In this document: positions 7,066-28,589 of the stretch, piece by piece
Position numbering within the stretch: the first letter of the stretch is position 1
Layout: each line of letters starts with the position of its first letter
From: Polytrichum commune
Taxonomy: Eukaryota > Streptophyta > Polytrichopsida > Polytrichales > Polytrichaceae
NCBI GenBank assembly: GCA_950295325.1
Contig: OX485803.1
Span: 34,613,554 to 34,677,553 of the forward strand
Direction: 5' to 3'
Length of the DNA: 64,000 nt
Notes under the pieces: generated by a model
Database searches by the model: none
What the model saw: the letters and a program-made list of their open reading frames with translations, nothing else
What the model was told of the DNA's origin: nothing
Translations under genes and position numbers: made by a program

Positions 7066-7123
7066 ATGTGGCATTATAGTTATAATGATAAAGATTGCAT
7101 TCCCGTTAGTATTAGCTATGATC

Positions 7124-7502: not shown

Positions 7503-7679
7503 TAGCTATGATCCCCCAATCAAGGTACGATTCACCCCATTAATCTAGAGCAATCCAAACGAATATCATCCCACTGATGGTCACATCCCCGTGCACCCTT
7601 TTCACATTGGAATACTTCCAAGCGCATGTGCCACATAACAAATGCCAGTGTTGGTTGGGTAGCTCTCAGCCACAATTCA

Positions 7680-8319
7680 AGAAGGTTGGATGTTGGAGGT
7701 TCGCCCCCTTACACCAGATTTTGAATTTTTTTTTCGGTTGATCATGTGGGTAGGCTAAGGGTCTCGGCTCCGAGAGGCTAGAGGATTCGGCTCCTTATAT
7801 CAGATTTTGAAGTTTCTATTGGTTGATAATGTGGGGAGGCTAAGGGTCTCGGTTCCGAGAGGCTGGAGGATTCGGCCCCTTATACCATATTTTGAAGTTT
7901 TTTTTTGGAGGGTACATGATTCGGCCCCTTACACCAGATTTTGAACCTTTTTTTTGTTGATCATGTGGGTAGGCTAAGGGTCTCGGTTCTAGAGGCTAGA
8001 GGATTCGGCTCCTTATACCAGATATTGAAGTTGTTTTGTGGTTGAGAATGTGTGTAGGCTAAGCCTTTTGGTTCCGAGAGGCTAGAGGGTTCGGCCCCTC
8101 TCACAAAATTTTGGTGTTTTTTTTGGTTGATCATGTGTGTAATCTAATGATCTCGGTTCTGATAGGCTAGAGGATTCGACCCCTTACACCAGATTTTCAA
8201 ATGGTTTTGTGGTTGAGAATGTGTGTAGGCTAAGCCTTTTGGTTCCGAGAGGCTAGAGGCTTCGGCCCCTCTCACCAAATTTTGGTGTTTTTTTTTGTTG
8301 ATCATGTGTGTAATCTAAG
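7680..8319. repeat. Degenerate tandem array A, about 85-120 bp units
   Basis: About six to seven units carry the order gattttgaa, T-run, gttgatcatgtg, aggctaaggg, tctcggttccgagaggc, tagaggattcggcccctta. Copies are anchored at about 7752, 7848, 7972, 8055, 8140 and 8226. The array is split by the hAT-type element at 8320-9298 and resumes at 9299 for about 45 bp. No coding function is visible. Confidence 0.75.
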
Positions 8320-9298
8320 CAGGGTTGTCTATTGTGTCGTGACGGAGGGTAATCCCGACATAATGTCGTGCCGTCACAACACGTATCCGTCACGACATTA
8401 TGACGGATGATGTCTTTATCCTGCCGGACTTGAATTTTACCGAATTTTTTGTGTATTTACATTACCCCATTGCGGACACGTAGGAGTTACGATGTCCACG
8501 TGTGATGACATGTCAGCAAAGTAGAGGTAAAGTGGGGAATAAAATTACTAGCGCCCGTCCGCCCTCCCGTCCGCCCCCGTTCCCCGTACCCTAACCCCGC
8601 TCCCTTAGCCCATTAACATGTTCCCTAACCCGTTCCCTACGTTCCCTCCCGTCCGACCTTTTCCCGTCCGACCCCCCGTCCTCCCTCCCGTTCCCCTCCC
8701 CTGTTCCCCTAATCCCGTTCCCATCCATCCCGTCCTATCCAAACCTCCTAAACCCGCTCCCATCCCCCGCCCCCACGTTCCCACACGCTCCCCGCGTTCC
8801 CCCCCCCCCCCCCCCCCGGTTCCCACTTACCTTCCCGTCCTCCCTCCCCGTCCTCCCCTTCCCCCCCCCCCCCCCCCCCCCCGTCCGTCCCTTCCCCCAC
8901 CCCCGTCCGACCCATCCCCCCCCCCCCCCCCCCCGTCCGACCCTTCCCCCCGCCCGACCCTCACCCCCATCCGACCCCATGTTCCCCCGCGCTCCCCACC
9001 CGTTCCCCCCGTCCGACCTACACCCTCCTTAGTAATATTTTATTACTTTGATTTTAACAAAATGGTAAACACAATGGCAAAATGGTTTACATGCCAAGGG
9101 AAATATACACATCCACGTCGGCATTTTTTGCCACATAGGACGCCACCTTGGCAAGAAGGTAAGTATTTTACCCACCCTACTAGGTTGACCCTAGTTTGAC
9201 CCTACGAGGAGCCTATTGTGTCGTGACGGAGGGGTCCGACCCGACACGACGCGTCATGACGGCACGACCCCGTCATGACATCGCGATAGACAACCCTG
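8320..9298. mobile_element. hAT-type MITE, copy 1
   Basis: Terminal inverted repeats begin CAGGGTTGTCTAT and end ATAGACAACCCTG. They are bordered by an exact 8-bp target duplication AATCTAAG (8312-8319 and 9299-9306). An 8-bp duplication plus CAGGG termini is the hAT signature. There is no transposase; the core is extreme C-rich low-complexity DNA (about 8550-9030, built on CCCGTCCGACC and poly-C). A non-repetitive segment at 9030-9100 is shared, inverted, with the copy at 11934-12637. The proline-rich open frame across the core is an artefact of composition. Confidence 0.85.
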
Positions 9299-9306
9299 AA
9301 TCTAAG

Positions 9307-9990
9307 GGTCTCGGTTCTGATAGGCTAGAGGATTCGGCCACAATTCAGAATGCTTGAATGTTTGACTTAAGGTTTAGCTCTCGGCCACTTTTCAAAAATC
9401 TTGAATGTTTGAGTGAATGTTTAGCCCTCGGCCACATTTCAGAATGCTTGAATGTTTGACTTAAGGTTTAGCTCTCGGCCCAAAATCAAAAATCTTGAAT
9501 GTTTGAATAAAGTTTTAGCTCTCGGCCACTTTTCAGAATGCTGGAATGTTTGACTTAAGGTTTAGCTCTAGGCCTAATATCAAAAATCTTGAACGTTTGA
9601 GTAAAGTTTTAGCTCTCGGCCACTTTTCAGAAATCTTGAATGTTTGAGTGAATGTTTAGCTCTCGGCCACATTTCAGAATGCTTGAATGTTTGACTTAAG
9701 GTTTAGCTTTTGGCCGAATATCAAAAATCTTGAATGTTAGAGTTAAGTTTTAGCTCTCGGCCACTTTTCAGAAATCTTAAATGTTTGAGTGAATGTTTAG
9801 CTCTCGGCCACATTTCAGAAATCATGAATGTTTGAGTTAAGGTTTGCCTTTCGGCCGAATATCAAAAATCTAGAATGTTTGAGTTAAGTTTTAGCTCTCG
9901 GCCATATTTCAGAAATTTTTAATGTTTGAGTGAATGTTTAGCTCTTGGCCACATTTCATAAAGGTTGGATTCATATGATGAATGTGTCTC
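9307..9990. repeat. Tandem array B, about 45-bp unit
   Basis: About 13 units of a 45-46-bp motif (ttagctctcggccac, atttcagaa, tcttgaatgtttgag) run head to tail. A small remnant of array A leads into it at 9307-9340. Units alternate between two subtypes, one carrying cggccacatttcag and the other cggccgaatatcaaa, suggesting a higher-order dimer. Confidence 0.8.
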
Positions 9991-10047
9991 ATTTTGTAAC
10001 TCATTGAGGTTTGCGCATCAGGTTGGGGAAGATCACGCCAATCCCAT

Positions 10048-10560
10048 GTGATGGAGCCACTTGCATTGTATTTGGACGAAGATGTACAATTAACGGTCTT
10101 GGTTCCAAACTTGTTGGTGGGTGCCGCAAAAGTGGATATGGGTGCAAAGACGGCATTGGACACCCAACTCCGTTTGTTGCTAATCCATAATTTGAGGCTA
10201 TCTTGCAAAGCATGGAAAACGATTGTTGATTAAAGAGCGGAGTTCAATGCTCTTCGTTTGGCTCAATATGAATACGCAATGGGCCCCAATGCTATCATAA
10301 GGGTTTGTTTGCCACGCGAACATAACCTCATCACTCAATTTTAACTAAACTTGATGTGGTTCTCACATAGCCGCCACGTCAGCTCATAGATTTCGCAGAG
10401 GATTCTTATGTCGGACTTGGGGGATTTAAAATTGCGGAAATTGGCTAAGCTAAGGGATGAATTGAAGATGTCATTCTGTGCGGTGGAGTTCTATGGCATG
10501 AGCTTTCATCCACGTGCACCGTATTGGATATGCCCGGCCGATAGGGTGTAGACACGTGGA
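10048..10560 (+). pseudogene. Degraded open frame of unknown family
   Basis: One frame runs about 510 nt with only a few stops: TAA at about 10231, TAA at about 10343, then others near 10396 and 10548. It has protein-like composition (MEPLALYLDEDVQLTVLVPN at the start, later NALRLAQYEYAMGPNAI and LPREHNLITQF). I do not recognise the family. It lies upstream of the gypsy element and could be part of that element's 5' region, of another transposon, or of a dead host gene. Confidence 0.3.
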
Positions 10561-11142
10561 GGAGCCAAATGGACTTTTTTGCGCACACCTTTTTTTTCTT
10601 TTCTGGAGTAAACTGTTTATAGCAAATTGAACTGGATACACATTTTTGTAAGTTTTGACTTTGGCATCTAACTTCACCTACATTATCTCGGCCAATCAAA
10701 TATTTTGTGTATGGGAATTTTGGACATCTAAGAGTTCTTGGAAAGAGTACCGTAGCTACTTGGGCAATGTATCACTTTCTGGAAATCATTTAAGTACACT
10801 TAAGTACATTTAAGGGCTACTTCACACAATTGCTGACGTCAGCCCTATTTGAATATGAAACCATTTCAAAACCTAGACTATAAGATCTTTGATAACAAAT
10901 ACATACTTCCACATTTTTAGGTTCCGTTTGTTCCTCGACCTAGGTTGGGTTAATATCTCCACGGGATTGGGGTGTCTTTCCAAAAAATTGAATTCAAACT
11001 ATCTATAAATTCCACGGAAATAGGCACTGCTTGTCCTATTTTTACCCAACAAAGTCAAAAATTTCCGCTCTCCGCTCTACGCTTACACTACTAAGTTTCC
11101 CATCGGGCAGGGGGCAACCCTATTCGAGTTGCTCCCCAGTGT

Positions 11143-11805
11143 GTGATGATGGATTCGGGAGTACAACCTGTTATAATCGGCAAGAGGTTTGCCCAGGAGT
11201 TGGGGTTGGCGGCCGAGGATTTGGCTCCCTGTCCATTCATCATTGTCACGTCCATTGGTCACGTGGAGCGGGCCACAGGTTATACGCGGGAGCCATTACA
11301 ACTTAACTTCCGAGTGAAACCTGGAGATCCACCCGCACCTCTTCTTCTTAGGTGTGCGGTGACGGATGCGACCAACTATGACATTTTAGTTGGTCAACAA
11401 GCACTTTACCCTCTTGGTTTTGGTTTGGATAACTGGACTGAGGAGGTGTGGATCGGACCAGGCTGGTCGGCTAGGGACGGCCGCAGAGAACTTATTCCTA
11501 TGGCATTCGCGGCGGCCGCGACCATAGCACCATTATCCATGGTTTTTGGATGTGGTGCTATTGTGGACACATTGCCTTATGGTTCCACAATGTTGGAGGA
11601 GTCATTGGCATTCATGGGGAGTACAAACAATCACCAGGATATGGCACCTAAAGATGCATTGGTGCGCCATCCCAAGGACCCCCTTCCTCCCTGGCGAGAT
11701 TTCGCCGACCTATTCCGGAGGTGTGAGGACATTGTCCTCTCTCTCACTCCTAGGACACCGGTCATACCGGATGCCCCATCGGCATTGGCACATCCCATTT
11801 TGTAG
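11143..11805 (+). pseudogene. Retroelement aspartic protease
   Basis: The frame begins MMDSGVQPVIIGKRFAQ, containing the D-S-G catalytic signature of retroviral-type proteases in the xxDSGAxxxxI context. It continues with TNYDILVGQQALYPLGF, the usual second-half motif (DILLGxDxL). An in-frame TAG at 11803-11805 ends the segment, and the same frame continues directly into the methyltransferase motif I. Protease and methyltransferase were therefore probably one polyprotein, and the TAG is a later mutation or, less likely, a readthrough site. Confidence 0.7.
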
Positions 11806-11808
11806 CGG

Positions 11809-13540
11809 CCGCCAGATGCGGGAATTATTTTGGTAGAACTGTTTGGGGGCATTGGGACGGGATTGGCAGCCGTGTTGGCAACTGGCCTCACCGTTCGACA
11901 GTACATCTATGTCGACAACAATCCTATCTCCATCAGGGTTGTCTATCCCGCCGTTATGACGGTGTCGTGCCGTCACGACGTGTCGTGTCGTGACGGACCC
12001 CTCCGTCACGACACAATAGGGTCCACGTAGGGTCAACATAGGGGGAACGGAGTAGGGTGGGTAAAATACTTACCTTCTTGCCAAGGTGGCGTCCTATGTG
12101 GCAGAAAACGCCGACGTGGACGTGGATATGCCTAGCGCCAGGTAAACCATTTTGCCATTTTGTTTACCATTTTGTTAAAATCAAAGTAGTAAAAAACGAC
12201 TAAGGAGGGTGTAGGGCGGACTGGGCGGACGGGGGGGAACGCGGGGGCGGATGGGTGGGAACGGGGGCGGACGGGGGAACGCGGGGGCGGATGGGTGGGA
12301 ACGGGGGCGGACGGGGGAACGCGGGGGCGGACAGGGGAGCGGACGGGGGGGAACGGGGGTTGGGAACGGGGGCAGACGGGGGGGCGGACGGGGGTTGGAT
12401 CGGGGGTTAGTAATTTTTTCCCCACTTTACCTCTACTTTGTTGACATGTCATCACACTTGAACATCTTACATCCTACGTGTCCGAAATGGGGTAATGTAA
12501 TTACACACAACATTCGGTAAAATTCAAGTCCGTCAGGATAAAGACAACATCCGGCATAATGTCGTGACGGATACGTGTCGTGACGGCACGACATTATGCC
12601 GAGATTAGCCTCCGTCACGACACAATAGACAACCCTGATCTCCATCCGTGTGAAGCGTCACCATTTACACCAGTTGATGGTGTTGTACCCACAGCAGCTT
12701 CATCCGACTGCCATCCGTGGGTGCTTTGGACGTATTCCTCGTGATGTTACACTTATCAACGAGGAAGACTTGCGAAGGTTGGGCCTCGTTGATCTGATGA
12801 TTGCAGGATGGCCATGCCAGGGCCATTCACGTGCTGGAGCCAGCCGAGGTCTAGAGTATCTCAGGTCTAGTCTATTTTGGGACCTCATTCGCCTCATGCA
12901 GTGGTGGTTTTCCCACCAACCTTCCCTTTCATGGTATATCTTCGAGAATGTACCTTTGTTGGGAGACTCTCGGGACAAGGTGTTGGAAGGCGGTCATTAT
13001 GTTTGTCAACACCTTGGAGATCCTATTTTTGTGGATGTCGCGAGCATTGGATCTTATGCTCACCATCCTCAGTGAATTTGGACCAACCTCGCACCGTCAT
13101 TTCCTTCAGCTGCAACATTTTTTGCACTGCCTCCACCTTTGGATCAGAAGGTGGATGACATCTTGGATCCAAACCGGACCTCTTTGCCGGTTGTTCGAGG
13201 TGATTTACCCCCGTCGGCATTGGTCAACAAAGTGGGGCACTACGGAGGGCCTTTCCCACCTTTATGACATTTCCACAGTCATTCGCCTTCCGCGATCAGG
13301 GTTCGGGTATGGTGTGGGATGCTAACACCAAAACCCACACCGAACCCTTGGCTGACGAACGGGAGCGTGCCATGGGATTCCGCACTGGTACCACCGCACT
13401 GGCCTTTCTGAGGGCCAATGACGCTTCGTGTTGGGCCAAGCCATAGATCTTCATACCATGGTGTGGACTGTTGGTTTATGCCTTGCATTGCAACGACATT
13501 ATATTGACCAGTTGTTGTCTCTGGGGGCAGAGGATTTTGG
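11809..13540 (+). pseudogene. C5-cytosine DNA methyltransferase domain of the retroelement, interrupted by a MITE
   Basis: Motif I is ELFGGIGTGLAAVL (about 11836-11877), followed by an acidic YVDNNP strand. The hAT MITE (11934-12637) sits between this and the next segment; its 8-bp target duplication shows a clean insertion into the open frame. Motif IV is GWPCQGHSRAG (about 12808-12840) with the catalytic PCQ cysteine. Motif VI is FENVP (about 12943-12957). The motif VIII region ends HHPQ, then TGA at 13074-13076, then IWTNL. A late DERERAMGF segment (about 13354-13380) and LGQAIDLHTM (about 13432-13460) fit the C-terminal target-recognition and motif X region. Frameshifts lie near 13255 and 13425. 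The known reaction is methyl transfer from S-adenosylmethionine to cytosine C5; self-methylation of the element is an inference. Confidence 0.8.
11934..12637. mobile_element. hAT-type MITE, copy 2 (inside the methyltransferase)
   Basis: CAGGGTTGTC and GACAACCCTG termini are bordered by the 8-bp duplication ATCTCCAT (11926-11933 and 12638-12645). It is inverted relative to copy 1: the shared segment containing the ttttgttaaaatcaaagta motif is at about 12165-12200 here. The core is G-rich (GGGCGGACGGGGG units). At 704 bp it is shorter than copy 1 mainly because the core repeat is shorter. Confidence 0.88.
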
Positions 13541-13980
13541 TTAGGGGGCATACCGGTCCACATCCATGGAGGAAGGAATTGAGGTCATGGTTGGAGAAGC
13601 CAAACGAATCTTTCGATTCGAGCAGTAAGTGATGGATGAGCTCCGAGTTTAACGGATTTTTACTGCTTCGGCTTCTTCACCTCCAGTGGTGGCTCCATCA
13701 TCACATATTGGTGGTGATAAAGAGAGGATAACCTCCATTGCTAGCACGGAGGTTGGGCGCATGCTTAATGCCCCTTCCTCTCATTAGCAGTTAGAGTCCG
13801 TGGCAGCACCAGGTGGCTCTCTTTTAGTGGAGAGGGAGACCACAGAGTTTGATGATTGGCCATTGGAATTGGGCCCTCATCTCACTGGTACTGAGGCACG
13901 GAAAGTACGAGCATTTATTCACTCGTATCGTAGGTGTTTTATTTTTAGCCTTCAAGATCTTGAAGGTTAATAAGGAAAAC
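13541..13980 (+). other. Linker between methyltransferase and reverse transcriptase
   Basis: Fragmented frames with several stops. A part at about 13690-13960 reads as low-complexity Ser/Pro-rich linker followed by a VRAFIHSYRRCFIFSL stretch just before the reverse transcriptase. This is typical of the spacer ahead of the gypsy RT fingers domain. No separate gene is seen. Confidence 0.4.
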
Positions 13981-14830
13981 CCATCCATATTCAGTTGAAG
14001 GACGACCATCCCATTTTTCGGAGATCTTATAGGCTCAATGTTTCCAAGCGGATTGGCGTTCAAGCTCGTTGCCGAGAGCTCTTGGCAGCAAGGCTAATGA
14101 AATTGTCCAACGGGGAGTATGCTTGTGCTACGGTTATGCCATCGAAGAAGGATATCTTTGGCAATTGGACGGAGAAGCGGATGTGCGGGGATTACCGTCT
14201 AGTTAACTGGAAGACCAAGTCGGATCGGTATCCCATGCCAATCCCGGAGGAGTTGTTCGATGCCCTCAAATTTGCTCAAGTCTTTAACACTTTGGACTTG
14301 AGATCTGGCTATCACCAGCTCCCATTACTTGTGGGAGACCGGGTGAAAACCACATTCTGGGGAGTTGATCAAGATGGGAAGGATCAACTTTACCATTGGA
14401 AGTTTCTTTCATTTGGCCTAAAGAATGCACCTGCTGAGTTTCAAAGGGTGATGGACAGGTCCTCTCTGGCTTGCCCTTTGCTCGGTGTTACATAGATGAT
14501 GTGATCATCTTGAGCAGGATACCACAAGAGCATGTACGGCATCTGCAAGCCGTTTTTGAACGGTTGCAGCAGTGGGGATTGCACTTGCACCACGGCAAGT
14601 GCAAGTTTTTCCATGACCAGCTGGCATATCTAGGGCATATGATTGTTCTAGGAGGTCTTGGGGTACAGCAAGCTAAGGTGGACGCCTTGCAAAAGAATCC
14701 GGCACCGGTCGATGTGCCGAAACTTCGTTATTTCTTGGGCTTGGCGAATTACTACTGGCGATTCGTCAATAACTTTAGCTTAATTGCCAAGCCGCTCACC
14801 ATTCTCACGAGTAAGGACCAACCTTAGACT
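13981..14830 (+). pseudogene. Gypsy reverse transcriptase
   Basis: The RT shows KRMCGDYRLVNWKTKSDRYP (fingers), FNTLDLRSGYHQLPL (motif A with catalytic Asp), FLSFGLKNAPAEFQRVMD (motif B) and CYIDDVIILS (motif C, YIDD). Further motifs are LGHMIVLGG and FLGLANYYWRFVNNFS (thumb). A 1-nt frameshift lies near 14460, just before YIDD, and a TAG near 14825 ends the segment. The catalytic aspartates are present but the frame is broken. Confidence 0.85.
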
Positions 14831-15300
14831 TGGGGTTGTGAGCAGCAACAGGCATTTAAGACATTGAAGTAGAGATTGGATACAGCTCCAGTGCTTCAAC
14901 GTCCTAATGTTTCCAAATCTTTCCAGTTACATACGGATTGGAGTTCATTGGGTTTAGGAGCAATTCTCATTGAGAAGGATGATTTTGGCCGGAAGTATGT
15001 TGTTGCTTATGCTTCACGAAGCAACAATAGTGCGGAGGCCAATTATTCATCCTATAAGGGAGAGGCGTTGGCAGCGGTATGGGCTATTGCCCATTTCCGG
15101 CCATATCTCTATGGTCAGTTTTTTACTTTGGTGACTGATCATCAGCCTTTACGGTGGCTCATAGAGCTCATAAGCTTACTGGCAAGCTCGCCAGGTGGGC
15201 TTTATTGCTCCAGAAATACGACTTTGAGGTGGTGCACCGTGCTGGGATTACCAACCTAGATGCATATGGACTCTCACGCAATCCAAGTCCTTCGGATGAG
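14831..15300 (+). pseudogene. Gypsy RNase H domain
   Basis: LHTDWSSLGLGAIL, YKGEALAAVWAI and LVTDHQPLRWL supply the Asp-Glu-Asp residues of the RNase H active site in the usual order. The frame breaks near 15160, then resumes with HKLTGKLARWALLLQKYDFE and VVHRAGITNLDAYGLSR, the normal end of a gypsy RNase H/connection region. Confidence 0.8.
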
Positions 15301-16273
15301 GACTTGACTAGAGCCAGGTGGCATGGAGATTGTGATCGAGAGGCGGTTCCAGGTTGGCACGCGGTTGCTTACCTCACCTTATTTTCTGGTGCGATTGTTG
15401 AGGTTCTAATACAGGGCTTGGATGATGAGACTGATCGACCTCAAGCTATTGCAGATATATGGGAGGATCTTCCCGTATTGCATAACCTTCAGCAAGGGAC
15501 CTTTCCTTTGTCGACATCGGCAATGAAAAGGAAAAGGATTAGACATCGAATAATAAGGTTCCGTTGGGAGAACGGGTTGTTAATTCGATTGTGGTCAGAT
15601 GGGACAAGGTGCATTGTCCCTAGGTCGGATCAGAGGGCCTCCTTGGTGCAACAAATGCACAAGAAACTTGGCCATTTTGGCATACGCAAGACACATTCGA
15701 TGTTGCGTGGCCAATATTGGTGGACTGGCATGTATCAACAGATGTCGGGAGGTGTGAGGTTTGTGACCGGGTCATGTATAGCTTTAACACCTTGTCACCT
15801 CAGTTACAGCCCTTACCTATCATGGGATTGGGCTACCGTTGGTCGCTAGACTTTGCGGGACCGTTGGTTGTCACGCCACGTGGAGCAAAGTATGTGTTGG
15901 TGATGGTGGAGCATTTTAGCAAGTGGATTGAGCTTGTTGCTTTACCCCAAAACTCTGCGGAGTTGGCTACGGCCGCCTTTTTGGATCGTGTGTTGGTACG
16001 TTTTGGAGCACCGGCTAAGGTATTGACGGACCAAAGGAGGGAGTTCCTTGGTGTTTTTGAGGAGTTGTGTACTAAGGCGCTCATAGATCACCGCAGCACC
16101 TCTCGGGATCATCCGGAGGCGGATGGCTTGGTTGAACGGGTTGTTCAGACAACCAAGCGTGGCTTGAGGAAGTATGGATTACTTCGCAGGAGCCACCGGG
16201 ATTGGGACCTTATGTTGCCTTGGATTGCTATGGGCTATCGATTTAGTAGGCAGGCCTCTTTGGCGTCCTACAG

Positions 16274-17244
16274 TGTCGCAACCCTTGCTAGCCCCCCTTG
16301 ACAATCTTGCCAATTTTCAATTCTAGCAAAGGTTACGAGCGCTAACCATTCGCATTCCGCCATGCCAATGATTAGCTCCTCCTACCCCGGACCTTATAGT
16401 TCATAGGAGGGAACCAACCTTCCTACTTTGCTTTCGGGACTCACCCCTTAATCGGTAACCCATTCCTACATGTGGACTTCCATCCATGGAAGTCCAATCC
16501 CATGTTGATCATCGCATTGCCGGAGCAACACTACAACAACCCGAACCATACTAGGCAACTATGGCCTCACATTGGGCCAAGGCCCATGGAGTCCTTGCCG
16601 TTCGGCCTCGGGTGGGTGAGGCCACACCACCTCACCCCTATAAGCCTCTAGGACTCTACGCGGGGCCCCTACCCCACCGTCAACCAACCTCTTGTCTCTC
16701 TACCAAGAGTTGGGGCCAAGTGGACATTCTCCTTTAGCTGCTGGGCCTAGAACCCCCCAGCAGCTTCAGACCATCATAACTTCCTTGTATGATGTCTGAT
16801 CATAACAACCAACCACTCTATCTGCATCTACGCTTCACGTAGATGCCGATGGACTGCTCACTTGCCCCATTCGGGCAAGTGTTGAGGAAGTTATGCGTGT
16901 TTGAACCTTGGCAGTCCCGGGAATCACTCCCAGGCACTGCTGTACCGGGCGCTGTCCCGGGACAGCGCCCCACTCAAATGGCCATAACTCCTAGCTCACA
17001 CCTCTGATTGAGGTGTTCTTGAGCATTCTAGAATCACCACGCCATGAGCTACGCATAGCTCATGGCCTTACCCTTGTGCCTCCTAGTCTCCGTGGGTGGG
17101 AGGCGTTCCCAACGCCCGGGCCCTCACCCACACTAGGATCACTTGGGCCCTCTCACCAATGGCGCCACAAGTCCCGGGTGTCACTCCGGGGTCCCCCTTG
17201 TGCCCATGGTGTTTTGGGCACTCCTCATGGAGAGGTGCGCAACA
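16274..17244 (-). repeat. LTR (3' LTR in element orientation)
   Basis: 971 bp, TGTCGCAACCC to GGTGCGCAACA in plus-strand reading. Compared by eye with 22814-23785 it differs at about three substitutions and one 1-nt indel. It holds a chain of perfect inverted repeats, e.g. 16474-16495, 16736-16765, 16824-16846, 16861-16879, 16947-16970 and 17041-17066. Confidence 0.92.
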
Positions 17245-17264
17245 CTCACCCCCACCAAACGGAG
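17245..17264 (-). promoter_or_regulatory. Polypurine tract of the nested element
   Basis: On the minus strand the purine-rich GGTGGGGGTGAG directly abuts the 3' LTR. Position and composition fit a plus-strand priming site. Confidence 0.55.
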
Positions 17265-18670
17265 TCGATGCCCTCATCGACTATACTCGTAGTCGGCACA
17301 CCAATTCTCAAGTTGCCATCCTCTATGGTGCGGCATTGTGTTTACCTTAGGGCGCGACCCCCACAATGCATCTTCAAATTTGGCATAGTCCCAAAGGTGT
17401 CGTTCCTAGGTGGTCCGTTAGCGACCTTGGATCTCTCATCCAAGGACCTAACCTATAGTAGACCCACCTACTTTGGGACTCACTTGGGTTGCCCCCCTTT
17501 GGGGCCTCCCCCATTAGGCTCCACTAGCCTAACGTGACACATCTAGGCGAGACCTCAACGCTTCCACTAAGTTGTCTCGGTTGCAACTCCGAGATGGCTT
17601 TCCATTGTTAAGCCACGCCTCCATCGCACGGGGGTGATGCCAAGTCCCGCCCGACTCGGTTCCCACTTTGCTCTTTCGAGACATGGGTTCATGACTCCCA
17701 TGCGCCAACTCTCGTTAGCTCGCGGGTAGCACTTTTATGAGCACGCGCCATCACCTTGTCCCCGCCCGGACAAGCCCACAACTAAGAAGTTTCTTGGTTT
17801 TATCCAAGGCCCCTCCAAGCCATGGCCCCCAATTACTCGGCTTACCCAACCTAGTTTGGCATATCTATTCCCCCTCTTCCATTAACCAAGCACAAGTACA
17901 AGACTAGGACCTCATCTCATACTTTTCTCTTTGCACCACTAAAGTTTGGACTTTATTCCCTCAAGCCAAAGAACAAGTTCATGTTGTGGAGTAATTAACC
18001 TCGAAGCTAAGTGTGCTACTAGCGTCTCTCCCCCACTAAAAGAGATTGATGTCCTCATCAATGCCTACGCTTCATTTCATTGGAGTGTCTAGCCTTAGTT
18101 TCTTCAAAGTGCTTTACCAATTCCTTGCCGTTCATCATGTCTCTTGCCGCTACCCAAACGGCTTCTTTCTCATGGTATCCTCACCATTTCACCAACTACT
18201 CCTTTGTACATTTTCTTTCATTTTCACTTGGGCTTCCTACACTTGAGGATGCCCTCCTACCTCATGTTCCAAATGACGTCCACAAGGTCGAGACGTGGCC
18301 TAATCACTTGCTTGTGTTCGGGCCACAAGGTGTCGTCCTAAAATGACTTTCGTAATGAGACATGAAATGTCGGATGCACTTTGATCTCCGGCAGTAATTC
18401 CAATCTATACATGTCCTTGAACACTTGTTCCACAATGGAAAACAAAGCTCCAATTTTGGACATGAACTTTGGAGTGAGTCCTTCCGGCTAAGTAAAGTTG
18501 TTCACATTCAACAACACCTTTTGGCCCACCTCATTCTCCACTTCGCGTCTTCCGGCATTGACTTGCACTCCGTAGCACCTTCGGGCTTTCTCCACCAACA
18601 ACTTGGTCATCTCCAAGACTTGTTTACCATCCTTGGCCAGGTCCTCACCATCTTGGTTGAACTCTAGTGT

Positions 18671-19474
18671 TCAATGTGCCCCCTCGAGAGCTAGGTTAAT
18701 AGGTTGGAGCGCATCCACTCCATAAGCCACCACCAAAGACCACCCCTTGGTAGCCAAGTGCGTGGCTACATTGCAATTACACTCCGCTCGACCCACATAG
18801 TCCGCCCAATCTCCTTGGTCCGCCCCCACCAAGTTCCTCAAGTATTGCTTCAAGACTCCATTCACACGCTCCGTTTTCTCATCCATTTGGGAATGCAAGG
18901 CCGTGCTAAACCTTAGTTTCATTCCGACCTCCTTAGAGAAATGCATTGAAAATGCACTTGTGAACTTTGAATCTTGATCCCACACAATCACTCTTGGCAA
19001 CCCGTGGTGCTTCAACCATCCTTTGAGAAAAGGCTATGCGGTCTCCAACGCGGTGGCGGTTCCCACAATCGGCAACATGTGTGCCAACTTGGCAAACCGC
19101 TCTACCATCAACAAGATGGCATCATACCCATGTGACTCCGGCAAACTTGTGATCAAGTCCATGCACATACTATGCCATGACGCCGACGGGATAGGCAACG
19201 GTTGCAAGAAACCGCCTTGCTTTTGGTAAGAGGCTCGGTTCACTTGGCACTTTATTCACGCCTTCACAAAGTGGGTTATATCCTCCTTTATGCACCCCCA
19301 ATGGTACCTCTTTGACACCATTCTATGGCGGTTGTTTCTTTCTCCTTTATGGCCGGCAATAGGACTATCATATTCCTCCTTCAAAACCGATAGCCTCAAC
19401 TTGCCTTGTGGCACATACACCCAACTTTGCTTGCACTTGAACAATCCGTCCACCAACTTAACCTCTTTGAGCAC
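18671..19474 (-). pseudogene. Integrase of the nested element, broken
   Basis: Minus-strand frames read the zinc-domain part at 19256-19474 (GHKGERNNRH, then KRYHWGCIKEDI). The core follows at 19034-19243 (CMDLITSLPESHGYDAILLM, first Asp) and 18671-19015 (RVIVWDQDSKFTS, second Asp; HSQMDEKTERVNG, Glu). Frames are separated by stops and shifts. Confidence 0.75.
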
Positions 19475-19876
19475 CTTGCTCTTGCGAAGCTCACCTAAAA
19501 GCTTTTGTGCTTTGGGGTAGTTAATTTACCCCTCCCGTATCTTGCATTACAAGTTTCCTTCGCCGGCACACATTAGCCACAAGGTTTGGATGGTTCTCAT
19601 TGCTTGGAACTCTTCCGGTCTACTTCGCGCATCCGGCACCACATTTCCACGGTCCGGTTTGTGGATCAAATCCACGTTCATAAGCGCCAAACTATCATGC
19701 CACCGCAATGACTTGGTGCTTACTTGCGCTTGAATGTCAAAATTCTTTTAGGACACATTGTCCATATAGACCTTTGTTTTGTGCGACCCCAAATAGTGTC
19801 GCCACATCTTCAAGCAATGCACTACGGCAAAGAAATTCTTTGTCATGAGTTGGTTGTCTTCTTTGACAACCATCAA

Positions 19877-21023
19877 GCTTCATGCTCCCATATACAATGG
19901 CCATCCAACTTACATCAACAATCCGCCATTGGCAAAGTCATTCACCCCCATATGCACCTCAAGAGGTTTGTCAAGCTCCGCGAACTTGAGCACGGGCGGC
20001 GAAAAAAACTTGTTCTCAAACTCCCCAAAGACTTGGTGGCAAGGCTCATCCCACTCTTGGGATAGCCATTTCTTCCACAAGTCGGATAAGGTCGGATAAC
20101 CATCGAGCTTAACGCTCTCATATGCAATGGCCATCCATCTTACATTAGCCATCCGCCAATGGCAAAGTCACTCGCCCCCCGTATGCACCTCAAAAGGTTT
20201 GTCAAGCTCCGCGAACTTGAACACGGGTGGCAAAGAGGACTTTGTCTTAAGCTCCCCAAAGACTTTGGGACAAGGCTCATCCCACTATTGAGATAGCCGT
20301 TTCTTTCACAAGTCGCACAAGGTTTGAAACCTTTAAGCTTAATGGTCCCATATGCAATTGGCATCCATCTTGGATCAACATCCGCCAATGGTAAAGTCAC
20401 TCGCCCCCGTATGCACCTCAAAAGGTTTGTCAAATTCCGCGAACTTGAGCACGGGCGGTGAAGAGAACTTGCTCTTAAGCTCGTCAAAGACTTGGTGGCA
20501 AGGCTCATCCCACTCTTGGAATAACCATTTCTTGCACAAGTTGGACAAGGTCGGACAACCATCGAGCTTCATGCTCTTATATGCAATGGCCATCCATTTT
20601 GCCTCAACATCCGCCAATAGTAAAGTCACTCGCCCCCGTATGCACCTCAAAGGGTTTGTCAAACTCCGCGAACTTGAGCACGGGCGGCGAAGAGAACTTG
20701 GTTTTAAGCTCCTCAAAGACTTTGTGGCAAGCTTTATCCCACTCTTGGGATAACCACTTCTTGCACAAGCCGAACAAGGTTCGACAACCATGGAGGTTAA
20801 TGCTCTCATAAGCAATGGTCATCCATCTTGGATCAACATCCACCAATGGTAAAATCCTTCGCCTCCATGTGCACCTCAAAATGCTTATGAAAACCCGGAA
20901 ACTTAACCACATCTTGCGAAGAGAACTTGCTCTTGAGCTCCCCAAAGGCTTGGTGACAAGGCTTATTCCACTCTTGGGATAGCCATTTTTCCTCAATAAA
21001 TTGAATAAGGTCCTAGCAACCTT
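19877..21023 (-). repeat. Five tandem copies of an RT/RNase H junction segment
   Basis: Units start at 19877, 20107, 20337, 20566 and 20795 and are 229-230 bp each. On the minus strand each encodes the same junction of the RT thumb and RNase H start: EWDEPCHQVF, then PPVLKFAEFDKPFEVH, then ASDF-I-GG, then WMAIAYES-KL. The unit length is not a multiple of three, so reading frames alternate between units and the array is not one continuous protein. The normal element would have one such segment. Confidence 0.85.
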
Positions 21024-21304
21024 CAAAAACTTCTCGAATGAAGTGGTGGTAGTAGTTGGCTAGGCCAACAAATGGCCTAAGCCCTTTTTGAATGAAGGGC
21101 CAATTCTCCTTTGGGATTGCCTTGACATTCTTCATGTTCGTCCACCAACTTCCTTTGTCACCACGTACCTCAAGAACTCAATTTCTCGTTGAACAAAGTT
21201 ATTTTTCACTCCTTGGCGGTAACTTTTTGTGCAACACATTGGTGAATACATCCTTGTATCTCACCAACATCCCACCAATATGGTTTGGGGGAGGCCCATC
21301 TTTC

Positions 21305-21694
21305 CTAGCCTCCCCATACGTTCCTTGGAGTTGCTCCAATTGAACCACGACCATTATGTTTTTTATTTTTCATTTGGTCTATTAAGACCAAATTCAACTT
21401 GGGTCCTCCTACCATAGGAGTCCTTGTCAATTTGAACTTCAATTCATTGCCATTATGACACATCATAATGTGCCACAAGCACACCGGCTTGCACCTCACA
21501 TCTATCATGTGAGTTTCAAAGAAGGCGGCCTTGACAATGACATGCATTTCATCTATTTCACATGGTGTGAAATTTTGACAAAAATCCAATGTCCCACATT
21601 GAAAGGTTACATGCATCGCGGCCTCCTTTGTCTCATGCGGTTCGCCCTTTCCAAACCGCACCTTGGTGGGCTTGCCCACTCTATCAATCGGCAA
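21305..21694 (-). pseudogene. Aspartic protease region fragment of the nested element
   Basis: On the minus strand the frame contains GTLDFCQNFTPCEIDEMHVI, FFETHMIDVRCKPV and LKFKLTRTPMVGGPKLNLV. This is typical of the second half of a gypsy protease and the linker toward RT. The catalytic D-T/S-G triad is not visible in this frame. Confidence 0.5.
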
Positions 21695-21854
21695 GCCCCA
21701 ACTCCCTTGTGAGTTTTGGGCTCAAGAAGGAGTGATAGCCTCTTTGTCAACCCATGAGACATTTCTCCCATTCATTTGAGCCTCAAGGTACAAAAGATTT
21801 GGCCTTGGCTTAAGGCTACTAGCCTTGGCCACAATGCCATCGTCTTACATTCGG

Positions 21855-22150
21855 TCCTTGGCAACTTGGCTTGGCTTGGTCCGCAAAGCCAACTTTAAAC
21901 ATTTCGTCCGCGGGACAAATTGGTTTGGTGCCACAAAACCAATTTCTAATAGTTTGTCCGCAAAACAAACATGTTTTACCTTGGTAGCACAAAGCCACCT
22001 TCCCACACTCCGTCCGCGGCACGAACATGAATTGCCTTGGTAGGACAAACCCACCTCCCAACATTCCGTCCGCGGCACAAGTATGATTTGCTTTGGAAGC
22101 ATAAAGCCACCTTTCAACATTCCGTCCGCGGCACCAACATGTTTTGTCTA
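21855..22150 (-). repeat. Cys-rich tandem repeats, about 57-65 bp unit, five copies
   Basis: Units share the plus-strand core cattccgtccgcggcac plus ccttggtagcacaaagccacc. On the minus strand some frames give Cys-rich text such as TCLFCGQTIRNWFCG. This position, between the primer site and the protease, is where gag zinc knuckles normally lie, so the array may be amplified knuckle DNA. Frames are interrupted. Confidence 0.5.
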
Positions 22151-22798
22151 AGTAAAATGGACCAAACAATTTGCACTCATTTCTTTGGGACCTACTTTGG
22201 CTAAAGCCACTTGTGGTGATACGCCGCCAAACTTCTCTTTGGGACCATCGGATTCAATGATCTTGCAAACTTTATGATCCCCACCATGTCCTCAAGAAGC
22301 CTTGGGGACTTAAACAAGGCATCCACCACCCGCTTTTAAAACCCCACCTAAAAGGATGCATTTCTTAGAAAGCTCGTCCGTTTTAGGTGTATCCTTCATT
22401 TGTGCGTTTGAATAGCGCACATAGGCCTTAAGAGGCCCCGGGTGCCTCATTAGCACCAAAATCATTCCAACATCAATACATTCCAAGCATTTCGAATTGG
22501 AATTTCAATCCAACATTAATGCCCTCCAAGGTTTTGGGTGCTTTCGGTATTCTAGGCCCCAAATGTTTTTTGAGGTTTGCGGGAGCCTTTTTCAAAGCAC
22601 TCCTCCATTTTCCTTACCAAATCCACCCTCATGCCCACCATTGTCATTAGAACCAATGGTATGGTCAAATTCCACTTGCACATGATCCTTGTTCCAATTT
22701 GAGCCTCACAACCTTTTGGAAACCCCGGGCTCACCATGATAACCCGCCTTTTTGATAGCTATGTTTCCCTCAAAGTGCGAGCTCAAAACTTGGAACCC

Positions 22799-22811
22799 TG
22801 CTCTGATACCA
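22799..22811 (-). promoter_or_regulatory. Primer-binding site, initiator tRNA-Met type
   Basis: On the minus strand it reads TGGTATCAGAGCA two bases inside the LTR end. This is the standard plant LTR-retrotransposon primer site complementary to the 3' end of initiator methionine tRNA. Confidence 0.85.
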
Positions 22812-22813
22812 CG

Positions 22814-23785
22814 TGTTGCAACCCTTGCTAGCCCCCCTTGACAATCTTGCCAATTTTCAATTCTAGCAAAGGTTACGAGCGCTAACCATTCGCATTCCGC
22901 CATGCCAATGATTAGCTCCTCCTACCCCGGACCTTATAGTTCATAGGAGGGAACCAACCTTCCTACTTTGCTTTCGGGACTCACCCCTTAATCGGTAACC
23001 CATTCCTACATGTGGACTTCCATCCATGGAAGTCCAATCCCATGTTGATCATCGCATTGCCGGAGCAACACTACAACAACCCGAACCATACTAGGCAACT
23101 ATGGCCTCACATTGGGCCAAGGCCCATGGAGTCCTTGCCGTTCGGCCTCGGGTGGGTGAGGCCACACCACCTCACCCCTATAAGCCTCTAGGACTCTACG
23201 CGGGGCCCCTACCCCACCGTCAACCAACCTCTTGTCTCTCTACCAAGAGTTGGGGCCAAGTGGACATTCTCCTTTAGCTGCTGGGCCTAGAACCCCCCAG
23301 CAGCTTCAGACCATCATAACTTCCTTGTATGATGTCTGATCATAACAACCAACCACTCTATCTGCATCTACGCTTCACGTAGATGCCGATGGACTGCTCA
23401 CTTGCCCCATTCGGGCAAGTGTTGAGGAAGTTATGCGTGTTTGAACCTTGGCAGTCCCGGGAATCACTCCCAGGCACTGCTGTACCAGGGCGCTGTCCCG
23501 GGACAGCGCCCCACTCAAATGGCCATAACTCCTAGCTCACACCTCCGATTGAGGTGTTCTTGAGCATTCTAGAATCACCACGCCATGAGCTACGCATAGC
23601 TCATGGCCTTACCCTTGTGCCTCCTAGTCTCCGTGGGTGGGAGGCGTTCCCAACGCCCGGGCCCTCACCCACACTAGGATCACTTGGGCCCTCTCACCAA
23701 TGGCGCCACAAGTCCCGGGTGTCACTCCGGGGTCCCCCTTGTGCCCATGGTGTTTTGGGCACTCCTCATGGAGAGGTGCGCGACA
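22814..23785 (-). repeat. LTR (5' LTR in element orientation)
   Basis: 972 bp, TGTTGCAACCC to GGTGCGCGACA in plus-strand reading. It is the near-identical partner of 16274-17244. The adjoining internal side (below 22814) carries the primer-binding site, which fixes this as the 5' LTR of a minus-strand element. Confidence 0.92.
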
Positions 23786-24015
23786 TACAGCCTGTATCAG
23801 TTGTTGTATGGACGTGAGCCTATACTTCCAAGTTCTATTCGGAAAAAACTAGCTCATGTTATGGACTTGGATGATCCAAACATTTGGGCAGAGTGTTTGC
23901 AGGAGTGGGCTCAATTCTTCCAGAGAGCCATGCCTATGGCCATGGAGAATTTGTCCATTGCTCAGCACGCATTCGCAGTGGTGCTTACCGACCTCAATTG
24001 CGGAGATTATAATAG

Positions 24016-24417
24016 GTGGATTATGTTTATCTCCAACGTGAGGCGCTTACGACATTGGATATCAGGGCAGGGCGCACTATCCTTCGGATGAAGGACGTGT
24101 TGCCAAATGGTTTGTTGTTGTTGGAAGGCAAGGATGGTAGGGAATGTCGCGAGCATTCCAAAAATTGTGCCCCATGTCATCTATCCATTGAGGGTACAAT
24201 TCATCATGAACTGGCCGTCGTGCCAGAGGGTCTTTCATGTTTTGTGTATGGAGAGAAGAAAGGAGCAGCTACTATGTTCTTGTGTGATCAGTATCAACGC
24301 GGTTGGCACATGACATGCTTGAGGCCACCTTTGACTTCTCCACCATCTGGACAGTGGAGTTGTCCTCGTTGTCGAGGATCTTCGGTACTTGGTGCTTCCA
24401 CCAATCGTATTCAATGA
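24016..24417 (+). pseudogene. Integrase C-terminal tail with PHD finger
   Basis: After a segment LRMKDVLPNGLLLLEGKDG (possibly a small beta domain) the frame reads a PHD finger at about 24234-24396. It has SCFVYG, MFLCDQYQRGWHMTCLRPPL and SGQWSCPRC. Spacing and the GWH-xx-C and W-x-CPxC signatures are those of C4HC3 PHD fingers, which read histone H3 tails. The second and fourth zinc ligands are Tyr instead of Cys (both TAT where TGT is expected), so this copy could not fold normally. The frame ends with TGA at about 24415. Confidence 0.75.
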
Positions 24418-24689
24418 TCCTGTGTAGTTTTCATCATCTTGTGCATGTTCAAATGGAAAATGAAGAGTTATGGCTTAGAGACGCAATCAACATAAAGCAA
24501 TGGATTTAATTCTTTGAAATCTAATGTCCAAACATCAGAGGCAATTAAGGATGGGACTCACATTGCACCCAGCCTACAATTCCTTGGAATGACGTTCACC
24601 ACAGTAGTTAGTTGCGGAGCAATCTTTCATTATCCCTGCCCTTTGGATTGGCATTGGTCCTAGCTGCTTGGCAAGACTTCTTAGTCAGC

Positions 24690-24830
24690 TGAGGGGGGGG
24701 CATGTCAAGGTGTGTTGTTTATGTGTGACTTTGCTATGTTTTAGTGTTGATTGTTAGTGGTGGTTGGTACTCAAGCTGCAATGACATACGATCCCTATTT
24801 ACACGATAGTATGGAGTGTAGGGTAGATGG
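24690..24830 (+). repeat. Polypurine tract and start of 3' LTR of the outer gypsy element
   Basis: TGAGGGGGGGG (24690-24700) is a classic plus-strand primer tract. The sequence after it begins TGTCAAGG at 24703, a normal LTR start. The LTR is recognisable for only about 125 bp before a dispersed repeat starts near 24829. No matching 5' LTR was found, so the length is uncertain. Confidence 0.5.
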
Positions 24831-25170
24831 GTCTTAAGTGGCGTGTTTTCTTAATTGGACCCTATAATTAATTGGTATGTGGTTCAGTGAGGATCAAAGA
24901 ACAAACATCATAAAGACACATGTTTATAAGAAATCGGACTATGTCTTCAAATATTGATAATTGCTCTACACTCAAAAGTGAGCACAATTGGGACGACCTA
25001 TGTATCCAGTTTAAAAATCAACAAATATGTACTTCCAACGATCATAACTAAATCAAAGGAAGTCCGAGTTTCAACATAGATTTTTTGATGCAACACAAAT
25101 TTTATTGTGTAAATTTAATCAGTAGAAGTTGGAGAACATGAAAAATGAACCAAATAGCACCCACATACCT
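24829..25170. repeat. Dispersed repeat family R1, copy 1
   Basis: Begins gtcttaagtggcgtg and ends near acccacataccttac. It matches 26158-26530 and 38202-38583 along its length (for example ctctacactcaa and agttggagaacatgaaaaa). No coding capacity or terminal repeats are recognised. It starts within about 130 bp of the outer element's 3' LTR start. Confidence 0.7.
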
Positions 25171-25611
25171 TACACTGTATTGCAATTTTGATTGAGTCAA
25201 TTGACTCCCACTTTTTCCACCCAGTGTACACTATCAACAGCATATGAATATTTTAATCAACTGTGGGTACACTAAAAACCATGATGTTGCAATTGCATGG
25301 GGTTTTCTTCTAGACGTTGGTTGTTGATCTTTTGGTTGTTTGTGCGTAGGTGCAAATGAAAGTTCCTTGCCAAAAGTACAACTTGGACAAATTCCAATTG
25401 TTAAGGGTAGCCGAGGAATGAGGAGCGAGGACTCATGAGGGGCCCTTTCCATGCTCTAACCTGACCCACTCTTCACTATTTGAGAAAGTGAGAATGGGTG
25501 ATAATGCACCTTCGTATGTGAATACCAATTTTATTGGAAATCAAAATGTCTTATGTTTTTTTTTTTACCTAGAAATGATGAAGAAAGCATGCAAACATGT
25601 GTGAGTCACAA

Positions 25612-25750
25612 GACCATTAGTGTTAGTTTTCATGTAGGTCGCTTGCTCACCAAATCCTAATGAAAATGTAGATTCCACCTTGTGGCATCTAAATTTCTAC
25701 TAGAATCTAGTGGGTGGGCAACCTACATGGAAACTAACCCTTAATGAGGG
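25612..25750. repeat. Small foldback element
   Basis: Imperfect inverted repeats at about 25613-25650 and 25710-25748 share gttagtttccatgtagg against cctacatggaaactaac, around a 60-nt centre. This is the size of a small MITE or foldback element. A target duplication is not clear. Surrounding DNA at 25171-26157 otherwise holds no recognisable gene. Confidence 0.5.
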
Positions 25751-26157
25751 TGACTAGCATAAAGAGAGTGGGCGACCCACTCTTTGTTCAAGCTTGGTCA
25801 GGGAGGTAATTATAATAACCCGCACCAATGAGAGGGTTGCCATACCTCTTAGAACGGGTTCTAGTGGCAAAGTTGGCCCATAGGGACTCTCCCCATCCAC
25901 TTTTGAGCATAGGCATTGGGGAGAGCACATGAACAAGGAGATCAAGCAACTAATTATAGGCATGCCAATTTGATTCCCTAAATTGCCATTACAAAATTGA
26001 AATCTTGGGCAACTCACCGAACTATACTTTTTGTTCTTGACATTTAAAAAAAGTACAAGCAGTAACTGAAGCATTTAAAAAAAAATGGCCAATGGGTTAT
26101 ACAAAACTGGGTGCAAGCACGGTATAGTGGATAGCTTAACTCAACCAAGATTCGGAA

Positions 26158-26530
26158 AGGTCTAAGATTAGTGGCTCATTTTCTTAATTGGACCCCTATG
26201 TTTGATTGGTATGTGCTTCGGTGAGGATATAAGAGCAAAAATCATAAGGTCTCATGTTTAAGGGAGATTGGTCTACACTTCAAATATTAATAACTACTCT
26301 ACACTCAATAGTGAACACAATTGAGAGGACATATGTATCCATTTAAGAAACCAACAAACATATACTTCCAATAACCATAACTAAATCAAGGCAAGTCTGA
26401 TTTCTTTTTTCTTTTTTCTTTTTTTGATGTTTCATCGCAGACCTGCTGATGCAACACGCGTTTTGTTGATTCATGGGTAGAAGTTGGAGAACATGAAAAA
26501 CAAACCAAATATCACCCACATACCTTATGT
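26158..26530. repeat. Dispersed repeat family R1, copy 2
   Basis: Same family and orientation as 24829-25170, with a T-rich insertion near 26400-26425. Ends at acccacataccttatg. Confidence 0.7.
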
Positions 26531-26569
26531 TACCACTGGTTTGAGAGAAATTGAGTATTGACCAATGAT

Positions 26570-27176
26570 CAAGAAAAATTTTGGGCAAAATCAATTGAGA
26601 TCCTACTGTTTGCAAGTCCAACCAGTTCCATGTTGACATCCTTCGGTTTTCCTTTATAAAATTGGGATATATTCTATAAAATCCTGTAAAATGATCGGTA
26701 ATTTTCCTGCAGTCTTGAACTTCAATCGGTTACTTCTCAAACTCAACCGGTTCATCTGTAACCAACTGCGGGTTCTCCCCGATCATCGCTACTGACTTAT
26801 CTAAGTAGCTGCAATAGTCAATGAGAGGAACATGATCAGAGTGTCAAAAAGTACTTGATAGCGTGATATTCGGACTACATAAGCTACACTTTGTGTACGA
26901 TTCCGGAGTCAAACCAAACCAGGCATAACCACACAGGTTGCCAGAACCAGTGATCGGGGAGATTTTTGGGCATAATCGGATGAGATCCTAGTGTTTGCCA
27001 GTCTGACCAGTTACATGTTGACATCCTCCGGTTTTCCTTTATTAAATTGGGGTATATTCTATAAACTCTTCAGAAATGATCAGTAATTTTCTTGCAATTT
27101 TGAGCTTCAACTACTTATTTTTCAAACTCAACCGGTTCATTTGTAACTAACAGTCGGTTCTCCCTGATCATTGGCT
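26570..27176. repeat. Direct duplication of about 230 bp
   Basis: 26570-26805 and 26952-27176 are direct copies. They share atgttgacatcctccggttt and tcaaactcaaccggttcat and are separated by about 145 bp of unrelated DNA. Copies differ at many positions, so the duplication is old. No coding frame is conserved. Confidence 0.7.
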
Positions 27177-27908
27177 AGAACCCACTTAATACTACACCAA
27201 ATATGATATTTAGTGTCACTTACTATTTGGAATTACGGAGTGCTATATCCATTTATTGTACATCTCGTATTTTACCAAAAAGATGTTAAATTGGTTGTTT
27301 GGACAACATAGAGCATTAACAACTTTGCTTCGTAAAAAATTACATCAGAAGTAAAAAGATAGTAGAATTTTGTAAATCCAAATATGAAGTGACATTAACT
27401 ACCATATTTAGTGTTCCTTACCTTGAAAAGATCATTTAATGTGGCCATGAGCGCAAAGGGTGTCAGAATACTGGGTCCCATCCTCACTGCCATGGTCAGT
27501 CCTGTACTTGAAACTACCGACCGCCGCTCGGACTGACTTTGGACTTAAAATTCTTCGATTCTTTGAAACTAGAATGGTTGTTGTGGGTCGCTGCCTGTTG
27601 ACCACCTCGGAAACTGCATGATCCTCGACCGGCATGCTTTGTGACATTGATCGGCATACTAACATATTTTTGCTGTGTGATTCACATCGACGGGTATATT
27701 AGCCTGAAGTCATATGCAATTCAAATCATCAATCCCTCGTATCACTGGAGCATGTAACTAACATCGACAACAACAACATAGGAGCTTCCCATCATCGCAA
27801 CCTCGCTCTCAGATCTGCTCTGTATCTACGATGGAACAGCAAACTTGGTGTAGCAGTCTTCTCCAGCTCCGTCCACTTTGTTGCCAATTTACAAGGATTT
27901 GTGTACGC

Positions 27909-28451: not shown

Positions 28452-28589
28452 GGCGGGAACACATTGATGCACATATCCGATAAATGTGTCTGCTGTGATG
28501 ATCCCGTGAAGAGCAGAGATGCATTTTTTTCCATCTCAATCATCCAGCAGGGGCATGAACGGTCACACGATATGGCAACAACAAACAAA

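Follow-up and report, generated by a model that had tools for sequence, protein, structure and literature searches.

A decayed Ty3/gypsy Pol region that very probably encloses a DNMT3-type cytosine methyltransferase

Layout of the Pol region

The window analysed here is the whole 64-kb stretch of DNA. Between 11095 and 24417 its plus strand carries what is very probably the broken Pol of a Ty3/gypsy LTR retrotransposon, with a DNMT3-type C5-cytosine methyltransferase (DNMT) between the protease and the reverse transcriptase (RT). The list of open reading frames (ORFs) and the Pfam matches together give the order protease-like ORF, DNMT, RT, RNase H, integrase and PHD finger, all on the plus strand. 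The first of these, at 11095-11802 in frame 1, is called protease-like from its retropepsin-like DSG motif and its position; its best Pfam matches (PF13650, E 0.09; PF13975, E 0.11) fall below the cut-off. An in-frame TAG (11803-11805) separates it from a DNMT motif I segment at 11806-11933, so that frame 1 continues from the protease-like ORF through the stop codon into motif I (FGGIGTG), just as an earlier note on this DNA had described.

In the motif I segment, the alignment to the DNMT3A segment pairs 11809-11925 with residues 4-31. Motifs IV (PCQ), VI (ENV) and VIII, together with the start of the target-recognition region, are placed by Pfam and PDB matches at 12638-13255 in frame 2, with a TGA at 13073. 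The PF00145 match (E 1.3e-11; 12638-13072, frame 2) includes the catalytic PCQ and the ENV and spans only positions 48-119 of the 324 in the profile. Farther along lie a candidate motif IX (ERERAMGF; 13258-13443, frame 1), in the collinear place, and a candidate motif X (13431-13541, frame 3, the frame of the RT). These two are visible by eye only, their scores against DNMT3A being reached by 158 and 425 of 500 shuffles, respectively. The earlier claim of a full catalytic domain therefore holds for motifs I, IV (PCQ), VI (ENV) and VIII, the presence of which identifies a C5-cytosine methyltransferase, but not for motifs IX and X, which score no better than shuffled sequence. The match to the NCBIfam dcm profile is below its cut-off (41.8 vs 100.65 bits), and an AlphaFold model of the DNMT piece was uninformative (mean pLDDT 32.7).

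The RT had been said to follow directly. It does stand in the same frame, which extends back through six stops to the end of the DNMT and takes in the motif X candidate, but 432 bp of linker containing those stops (13542-13973, frame 3) lie in between. The RT itself (13974-14827) is read in frame 3 and then in frame 2, carries a YIDD motif and matches PF00078 (RVT_1) at E 3.6e-10 and 6.9e-13. RNase H occupies 14873-15259 (PF17917, RT_RNaseH, E 2.8e-28); its end and the integrase zinc-binding domain occupy 15139-15849 (PF17921, H2C2, E 6.7e-11), and the first part of the integrase core 15624-16273 (PF00665, rve, E 5.8e-12). RT, RNase H and integrase are thus all present by Pfam, in the order expected of Ty3/gypsy. 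The remainder of the integrase, recognised by eye without a Pfam match of its own, is at 23786-24091 in frame 2. The last recognised coding part is a PHD finger at 24016-24417 in frame 1 (PF00628, E 2.7e-7), where the ORF ends at TGA 24415.

The case for a Ty3/gypsy Pol with a DNMT is carried by the Pfam E-values, because the ORF-length control is weak: nine ORFs reach at least 100 aa, where 300 Markov sequences have 3.1 on average and never more than 8, and one control ORF, at 291 aa, is longer than any real one (maximum 236 aa). The same domains might be chance neighbours, if a gypsy element inserted next to a DNMT3 gene or pseudogene of the host, or if one copy picked up the DNMT once and did not spread. 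The six stops between DNMT and RT would fit such an origin, as would the single DNMT copy in the window and the lack of an LTR pair to delimit the element. We nonetheless consider it very unlikely, since the DNMT is linked by frame to the protease-like ORF on one side and to the RT on the other, with no intron apparent. Moreover, DUF3444, which is carried by DNMT3 genes of non-flowering streptophytes (PMC6453930), is absent among the Pfam families reported for the scanned pieces, and a DNMT within a gypsy Pol has an algal precedent (PMC5890265). The proposal that the DNMT lies within a Ty3/gypsy Pol is borne out by the ordered Pfam domains and by the frame links on both sides.

Later insertions, decay and the element ends

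Two insertions, both flanked by exact target-site duplications, interrupt the Pol. A hAT-like non-autonomous element of 704 bp (11934-12637) lies within the DNMT, with an 8-bp duplication, ATCTCCAT, at 11926-11933 and 12638-12645. It accounts for the gap in the split DNMT coordinates of the earlier note (11809-11933 plus 12638-13540), which were correct. A related, inverted copy of the hAT-like element is found at 8320-9298. The second insertion, in the integrase, is a nested LTR retrotransposon of 7,512 bp on the minus strand (16274-23785), with LTRs at 16274-17244 and 22814-23785, a TACAG duplication at 16269-16273 and 23786-23790, and, at 22811 on that strand, TGGTATCAGAGC, which resembles a primer-binding site. 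Its LTRs differ by three substitutions and one indel. The interval 11095-24830 is consequently not one element, as had been supposed, since 16274-23785 belongs to this separate one. Frame arithmetic agrees with observation in both cases: the 704+8 bp of the hAT-like insertion predict a shift from frame 1 to frame 2, and the 7,512+5 bp of the LTR element a shift from frame 3 to frame 2, the frame in which the integrase remainder is read. Because the reading frame is kept across both sites, both insertions must have struck continuous coding sequence.

The Pol copy at 11095-24417 is dead. Ten in-path stops occur across it, the last at 14870, and about six frame changes beyond those due to the inserts were counted by eye. 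A TAG at 14493 lies beyond the likely frame switch in the RT and is therefore outside the stop count.

The ends of the element are less distinct. The earlier note extended it to 24830; recognised coding sequence ends at 24417, and 24830 falls in the first few bases of a dispersed repeat, roughly 350-375 bp long, rather than at an established boundary. Two copies of this repeat form a direct pair (24827-25172 and 26170-26527, 73% alike) and a third is at 38206, the copies being 73-75% alike. We considered it as a DIRS-like B-A-B or terminal repeat and rejected it, given the third copy elsewhere and a divergence that appears too high beside a coding sequence so lightly decayed. The earlier note also proposed looking for full-length copies with two LTRs. 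Around the present copy, comparison of the flanks at 5000-11100 and 24400-40000 produced one 41-bp match (E 0.79), with no LTR pair and no other repeat common to the two sides, a result in which truncation and decay are indistinguishable. No Pfam family was matched at E 0.1 in three frames of 9991-11095, upstream of the Pol, suggesting that gag is truncated or decayed past recognition. No tRNA was found, and there was no Rfam match at gathering score.

As the window shows no LTR pair, no Pfam-recognised gag and no second DNMT copy, transposition of the DNMT together with the element is at most a possibility. The idea that a retrotransposon captured the DNMT is supported in part, by the position of the DNMT inside the Pol.

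Affinity of the methyltransferase

To place the DNMT, its pieces were aligned to DNMT3A, DNMT1 and M.HhaI, which were the only references, with 500 shuffles per piece. The scores against DNMT3A for motif I (z 7.5) and for motifs VI-VIII (z 6.1) were reached by 0 of 500 shuffles, compared with z values over the same two pieces of -0.9 and 0.4 for DNMT1 and of 2.4 and -0.4 for M.HhaI. Protease and RT control pieces gave z of at most 1.2 in the same alignments. Over motif IV the order is reversed, M.HhaI (z 18.9) scoring above DNMT3A (z 10.1), and the catalytic motif is PCQ here and PCN in DNMT3A. The pieces stand in canonical order, motif I ahead of IV-VIII. A DNMT3-type assignment is therefore partly supported, by motif I and motifs VI-VIII, with motif IV nearer to M.HhaI.

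This mixed affinity raises the possibility that the domain is a bacterial Dcm-type methyltransferase gained by transfer. M.HhaI is the best PDB match (E 4.5e-5) as well as the top reference over motif IV, and PCQ in place of PCN points the same way. We regard a bacterial source as unlikely, since DNMT3A is matched by motif I and by motifs VI-VIII, two pieces that resemble M.HhaI weakly or not at all. In addition, bacterial and archaeal contigs scanned with the DNMT piece gave 40 pattern stretches and 0 confirmed relatives, in a search that would miss distant ones. Viral contig scans with the DNMT, RT and RNase H/integrase pieces gave 11, 4 and 2 pattern stretches and no confirmed relative; single-protein scans of this kind reach close relatives only. 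Two PDB searches at E ≤10 gave 48 and 49 distinct sequences, in which the DNA methyltransferases of eukaryotes were DNMT3A, 3B, 3C and 4onj; the last, a DRM, was a weak match (E 0.077 in one search and 0.0024 in the other). Searched alone, motif I and the motif IX piece had no PDB match, and the VI-VIII piece had no methyltransferase match and one weak, unrelated one.

Host, possible role and known systems

The element neighbours a SAUR gene at 27762-28448 (PF02519, E 6.6e-23), from which we conclude that the host is probably a land plant. A SAUR survey found none in four streptophyte and seven chlorophyte algae, Klebsormidium and Chara not being among the four (PMC7789510). A streptophyte alga as host, with which the element would merely repeat the charophyte case, is unlikely. 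According to a 2019 paper, DNMT-encoding retroelements of this kind are absent from land plants (PMC6338049), a statement that the relic contradicts if its host is one. In that event the host is the new part, the presence of a DNMT in a gypsy Pol being itself known from an alga. Among the open-access papers listed, no title or abstract opening refers to a land-plant DNMT retrotransposon. A survey of plant LTR elements does not use the word "methyltransferase" in its main text (PMC6317226), and a paper on the fern Ceratopteris names two CMT genes with a methyltransferase domain (PMC9477723).

It is with enzymes of this class that cells mark jumping genes and silence them, and elements carrying their own are rare. 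Self-methylation of new copies has been put forward for such elements in a published discussion (PMC5890265), and the element at 11095-24417 may likewise have methylated itself. In working copies the DNMT would be made together with Pol, and could reside with RT in the particle or accompany the cDNA into the nucleus. It would methylate new cDNA no later than integration, and each new copy would arrive already marked. Methylation would probably be at CG, by analogy with the published DIRS relatives, and the probable role of the PHD finger is to bind a histone tail and so guide the choice of integration site. More broadly, and only tentatively, we suggest that DNMT3-bearing gypsy elements form a lineage which land plants either kept from their streptophyte-algal ancestry or acquired later. 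Its hosts would be organisms in which DNA methylation silences transposons, and the element would put that host mark on its own new copies while the PHD finger chose their sites. With a land-plant host, the self-methylation hypothesis would become testable in land plants, whose methylation pathways are well studied.

The closest known system is KnitGypsy-Dnmt3 of the charophyte Klebsormidium nitens, which had already established a DNMT in a gypsy Pol (PMC5890265). Compared by description and not by sequence, the two have in common an intronless, non-rearranged DNMT3-type domain in the gypsy Pol of a streptophyte; here it lies within Pol between the protease-like ORF and the RT. They differ in that a PHD finger closes the Pol here, whereas the term PHD is absent from the main text of the KnitGypsy-Dnmt3 paper, and in that DIRS-like repeats are described there and none is established here (PMC5890265). 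In yeast the KnitGypsy DNMT produced no methylation, in a test that its authors call inconclusive, whereas both copies tested of SymbioDIRS-Dnmt3, from Symbiodinium, methylated CG de novo (PMC5890265). SymbioDIRS-Dnmt3 likewise has a DNMT3-type domain in a Pol with RT, but is a DIRS element with a tyrosine recombinase, while the present element has a DDE integrase (rve). Land-plant DNMT3 genes share the DNMT3-type catalytic domain and its canonical motif order, but they are host genes with DUF3444 (PMC6453930), whereas the domain here is linked to an RT. The DRM methyltransferases, also relatives of DNMT3, have a rearranged motif order (PMC5890265), in contrast to the present domain, where motif I precedes motifs IV-VIII.

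Layout and state of the element

A decayed Ty3/gypsy Pol was identified at 11095-24417 on the + strand by translation and Pfam searches. It opens with a protease-like ORF (11095-11802, +), recognized by its DSG motif and its place, with a Pfam match (E 0.09) under the cut-off. A C5-cytosine methyltransferase (DNMT) with one insert follows (11806-13541, +; PF00145, E 1.3e-11), and downstream, on the same strand, are a reverse transcriptase (RT), RNase H, an integrase zinc-binding domain, an integrase core and a PHD finger, in that order. Apart from the protease-like ORF, the strongest Pfam match in Pol is that of RNase H (E 2.8e-28) and the weakest that of the PHD finger (E 2.7e-7). This succession of Pfam domains bears out an earlier note, made from the sequence alone, that had placed a DNMT inside a Ty3/gypsy Pol between protease and RT. 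The PF00145 match spans profile positions 48-119 of 324 and was not lengthened by a longer reading; the match to the NCBIfam dcm model fell under that model's cut-off.

As the note had also stated, the protease-like ORF and DNMT motif I share one frame across an in-frame TAG (11803). Its statement that RT directly follows the DNMT held only in part: the motif X candidate lies in the RT frame, but the linker between DNMT and RT (13542-13973) contains six stops. Because the coding path carries ten in-path stops and, counted by eye, about six frame changes over ~5 kb, we infer that this copy is dead, yet not very old.

No Pfam match to gag was found upstream of the protease-like ORF (three frames, 9991-11095), nor was an LTR pair found when 5000-11100 was compared with 24400-40000. 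The end formerly proposed, 24830, falls just inside a dispersed repeat that begins at 24827, not at an established boundary. That repeat, about 350-375 bp long, occurs at 24827-25172, 26170-26527 and 38206-38580 (73-75% alike). Immediately 5' of the element is a minisatellite (9240-10056) of at least 12 copies of a 47-bp unit.

Later insertions and neighboring genes

The methyltransferase is interrupted just 3' of motif I by a 704-bp insert (11934-12637) with ends CAGGGTTGTC...GACAACCCTG and an 8-bp duplication, ATCTCCAT, features that we take to be hAT-like. The integrase is interrupted by a nested LTR element on the minus strand (16274-23785, 7,512 bp; duplication TACAG), whose LTRs of 971 and 972 bp differ by three substitutions and one indel. 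With their duplications the insertions add 712 bp (1 modulo 3) and 7,517 bp (2 modulo 3), and the frame shifts observed, 1 to 2 across the hAT-like insert and 3 to 2 across the LTR element, are those predicted from these lengths; both would agree by chance one time in nine. Therefore, both insertions entered continuous coding sequence.

A relative of the hAT-like insert lies inverted at 8320-9298 (979 bp) with its own 8-bp duplication, AATCTAAG; it has a C-rich core and a CpG ratio near 1, higher than the other stretches measured. The near-identical LTRs of the nested element contrast with an interior that appears decayed by eye, in which a 229-bp unit (19869-21014) occurs five times in tandem and looks RT/RNase H-like in minus-strand translation. 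The nested element is perhaps non-autonomous and mobilised in trans. An inverted copy of its LTR, 81% identical, at 56077-57055 is possibly a solo LTR.

Neighboring genes include one for a SAUR auxin-responsive protein (27762-28448; PF02519, E 6.6e-23) and a biotin carboxyl carrier protein-like gene (45380-46095, minus strand) with the biotinylation motif EAMKLMNE, a TIGR00531 match under the cut-off (E 5.8e-12) and no Pfam match. A Ty1/copia-like RT fragment with YVDD was seen by eye near 54865 on the minus strand. Excerpts of a SAUR survey report none in four streptophyte and seven chlorophyte algae (PMC7789510), so the SAUR gene makes a land-plant host likely.

Type of the methyltransferase

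The DNMT pieces were aligned to three references (letters checked against PDB chains), with 500 shuffles each. Motif I scored z = 7.5 with DNMT3A, 2.4 with M.HhaI and -0.9 with DNMT1; motifs IV-VI scored 18.9 with M.HhaI, 10.1 with DNMT3A and 4.1 with DNMT1; and motifs VI-VIII scored 6.1, -0.4 and 0.4 with DNMT3A, M.HhaI and DNMT1, respectively. The motif IX candidate reached 0.6 (DNMT3A), 1.6 (M.HhaI) and 0.4 (DNMT1), and the motif X candidate was below 0 against all three. Protease and RT controls in the same test gave z <= 1.2. Since the DNMT3A matches are collinear (segment residues 4-31, 56-138 and 124-168), the motif order reads as canonical, whereas in DRM it is rearranged.

In the PDB, sequences matched at E <= 10 were DNMT3A, 3B, 3C, bacterial methyltransferases and 4onj, a DRM, besides a few unrelated chains, none of them with an E-value below 0.25. 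DNMT1, CMT and DNMT2 were absent among the 48 and 49 distinct PDB sequences at this threshold, and searches with motif I alone or the VI-VIII piece alone found no methyltransferase. Judged on the three references and the PDB matches, the enzyme is, with moderate confidence, of the DNMT3 type. DNMT3 is given as undetected in angiosperms in an excerpt of PMC6453930, which makes a flowering plant a less likely origin for such an enzyme.

Comparison with known elements

In intact relatives the DNMT would be made together with Pol and may methylate new cDNA either ahead of integration or as it takes place; the PHD finger might guide integration.

Land plants are said, in an excerpt of PMC6338049, to be without DNMT-carrying transposons, and no land-plant DNMT retrotransposon appeared among the listed titles and abstract starts of open-access papers. 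A 2025 paper, in the portion available, puts DNMT3 members in retrotransposons of streptophytes and dinoflagellates (PMC12344493); the streptophyte element is LTR Copia there and Gypsy in the original report (PMC5890265). In the accessible text of that report, De Mendoza and colleagues describe DNMT3 domains in Symbiodinium DIRS elements, with CG methylation demonstrated in yeast, and in Pol of a Klebsormidium gypsy element, with no methylation in yeast, an outcome they term inconclusive (PMC5890265). As described there, the Klebsormidium element resembles that of Polytrichum in carrying a DNMT domain in a gypsy Pol, and probably in the DNMT3 type of that domain.
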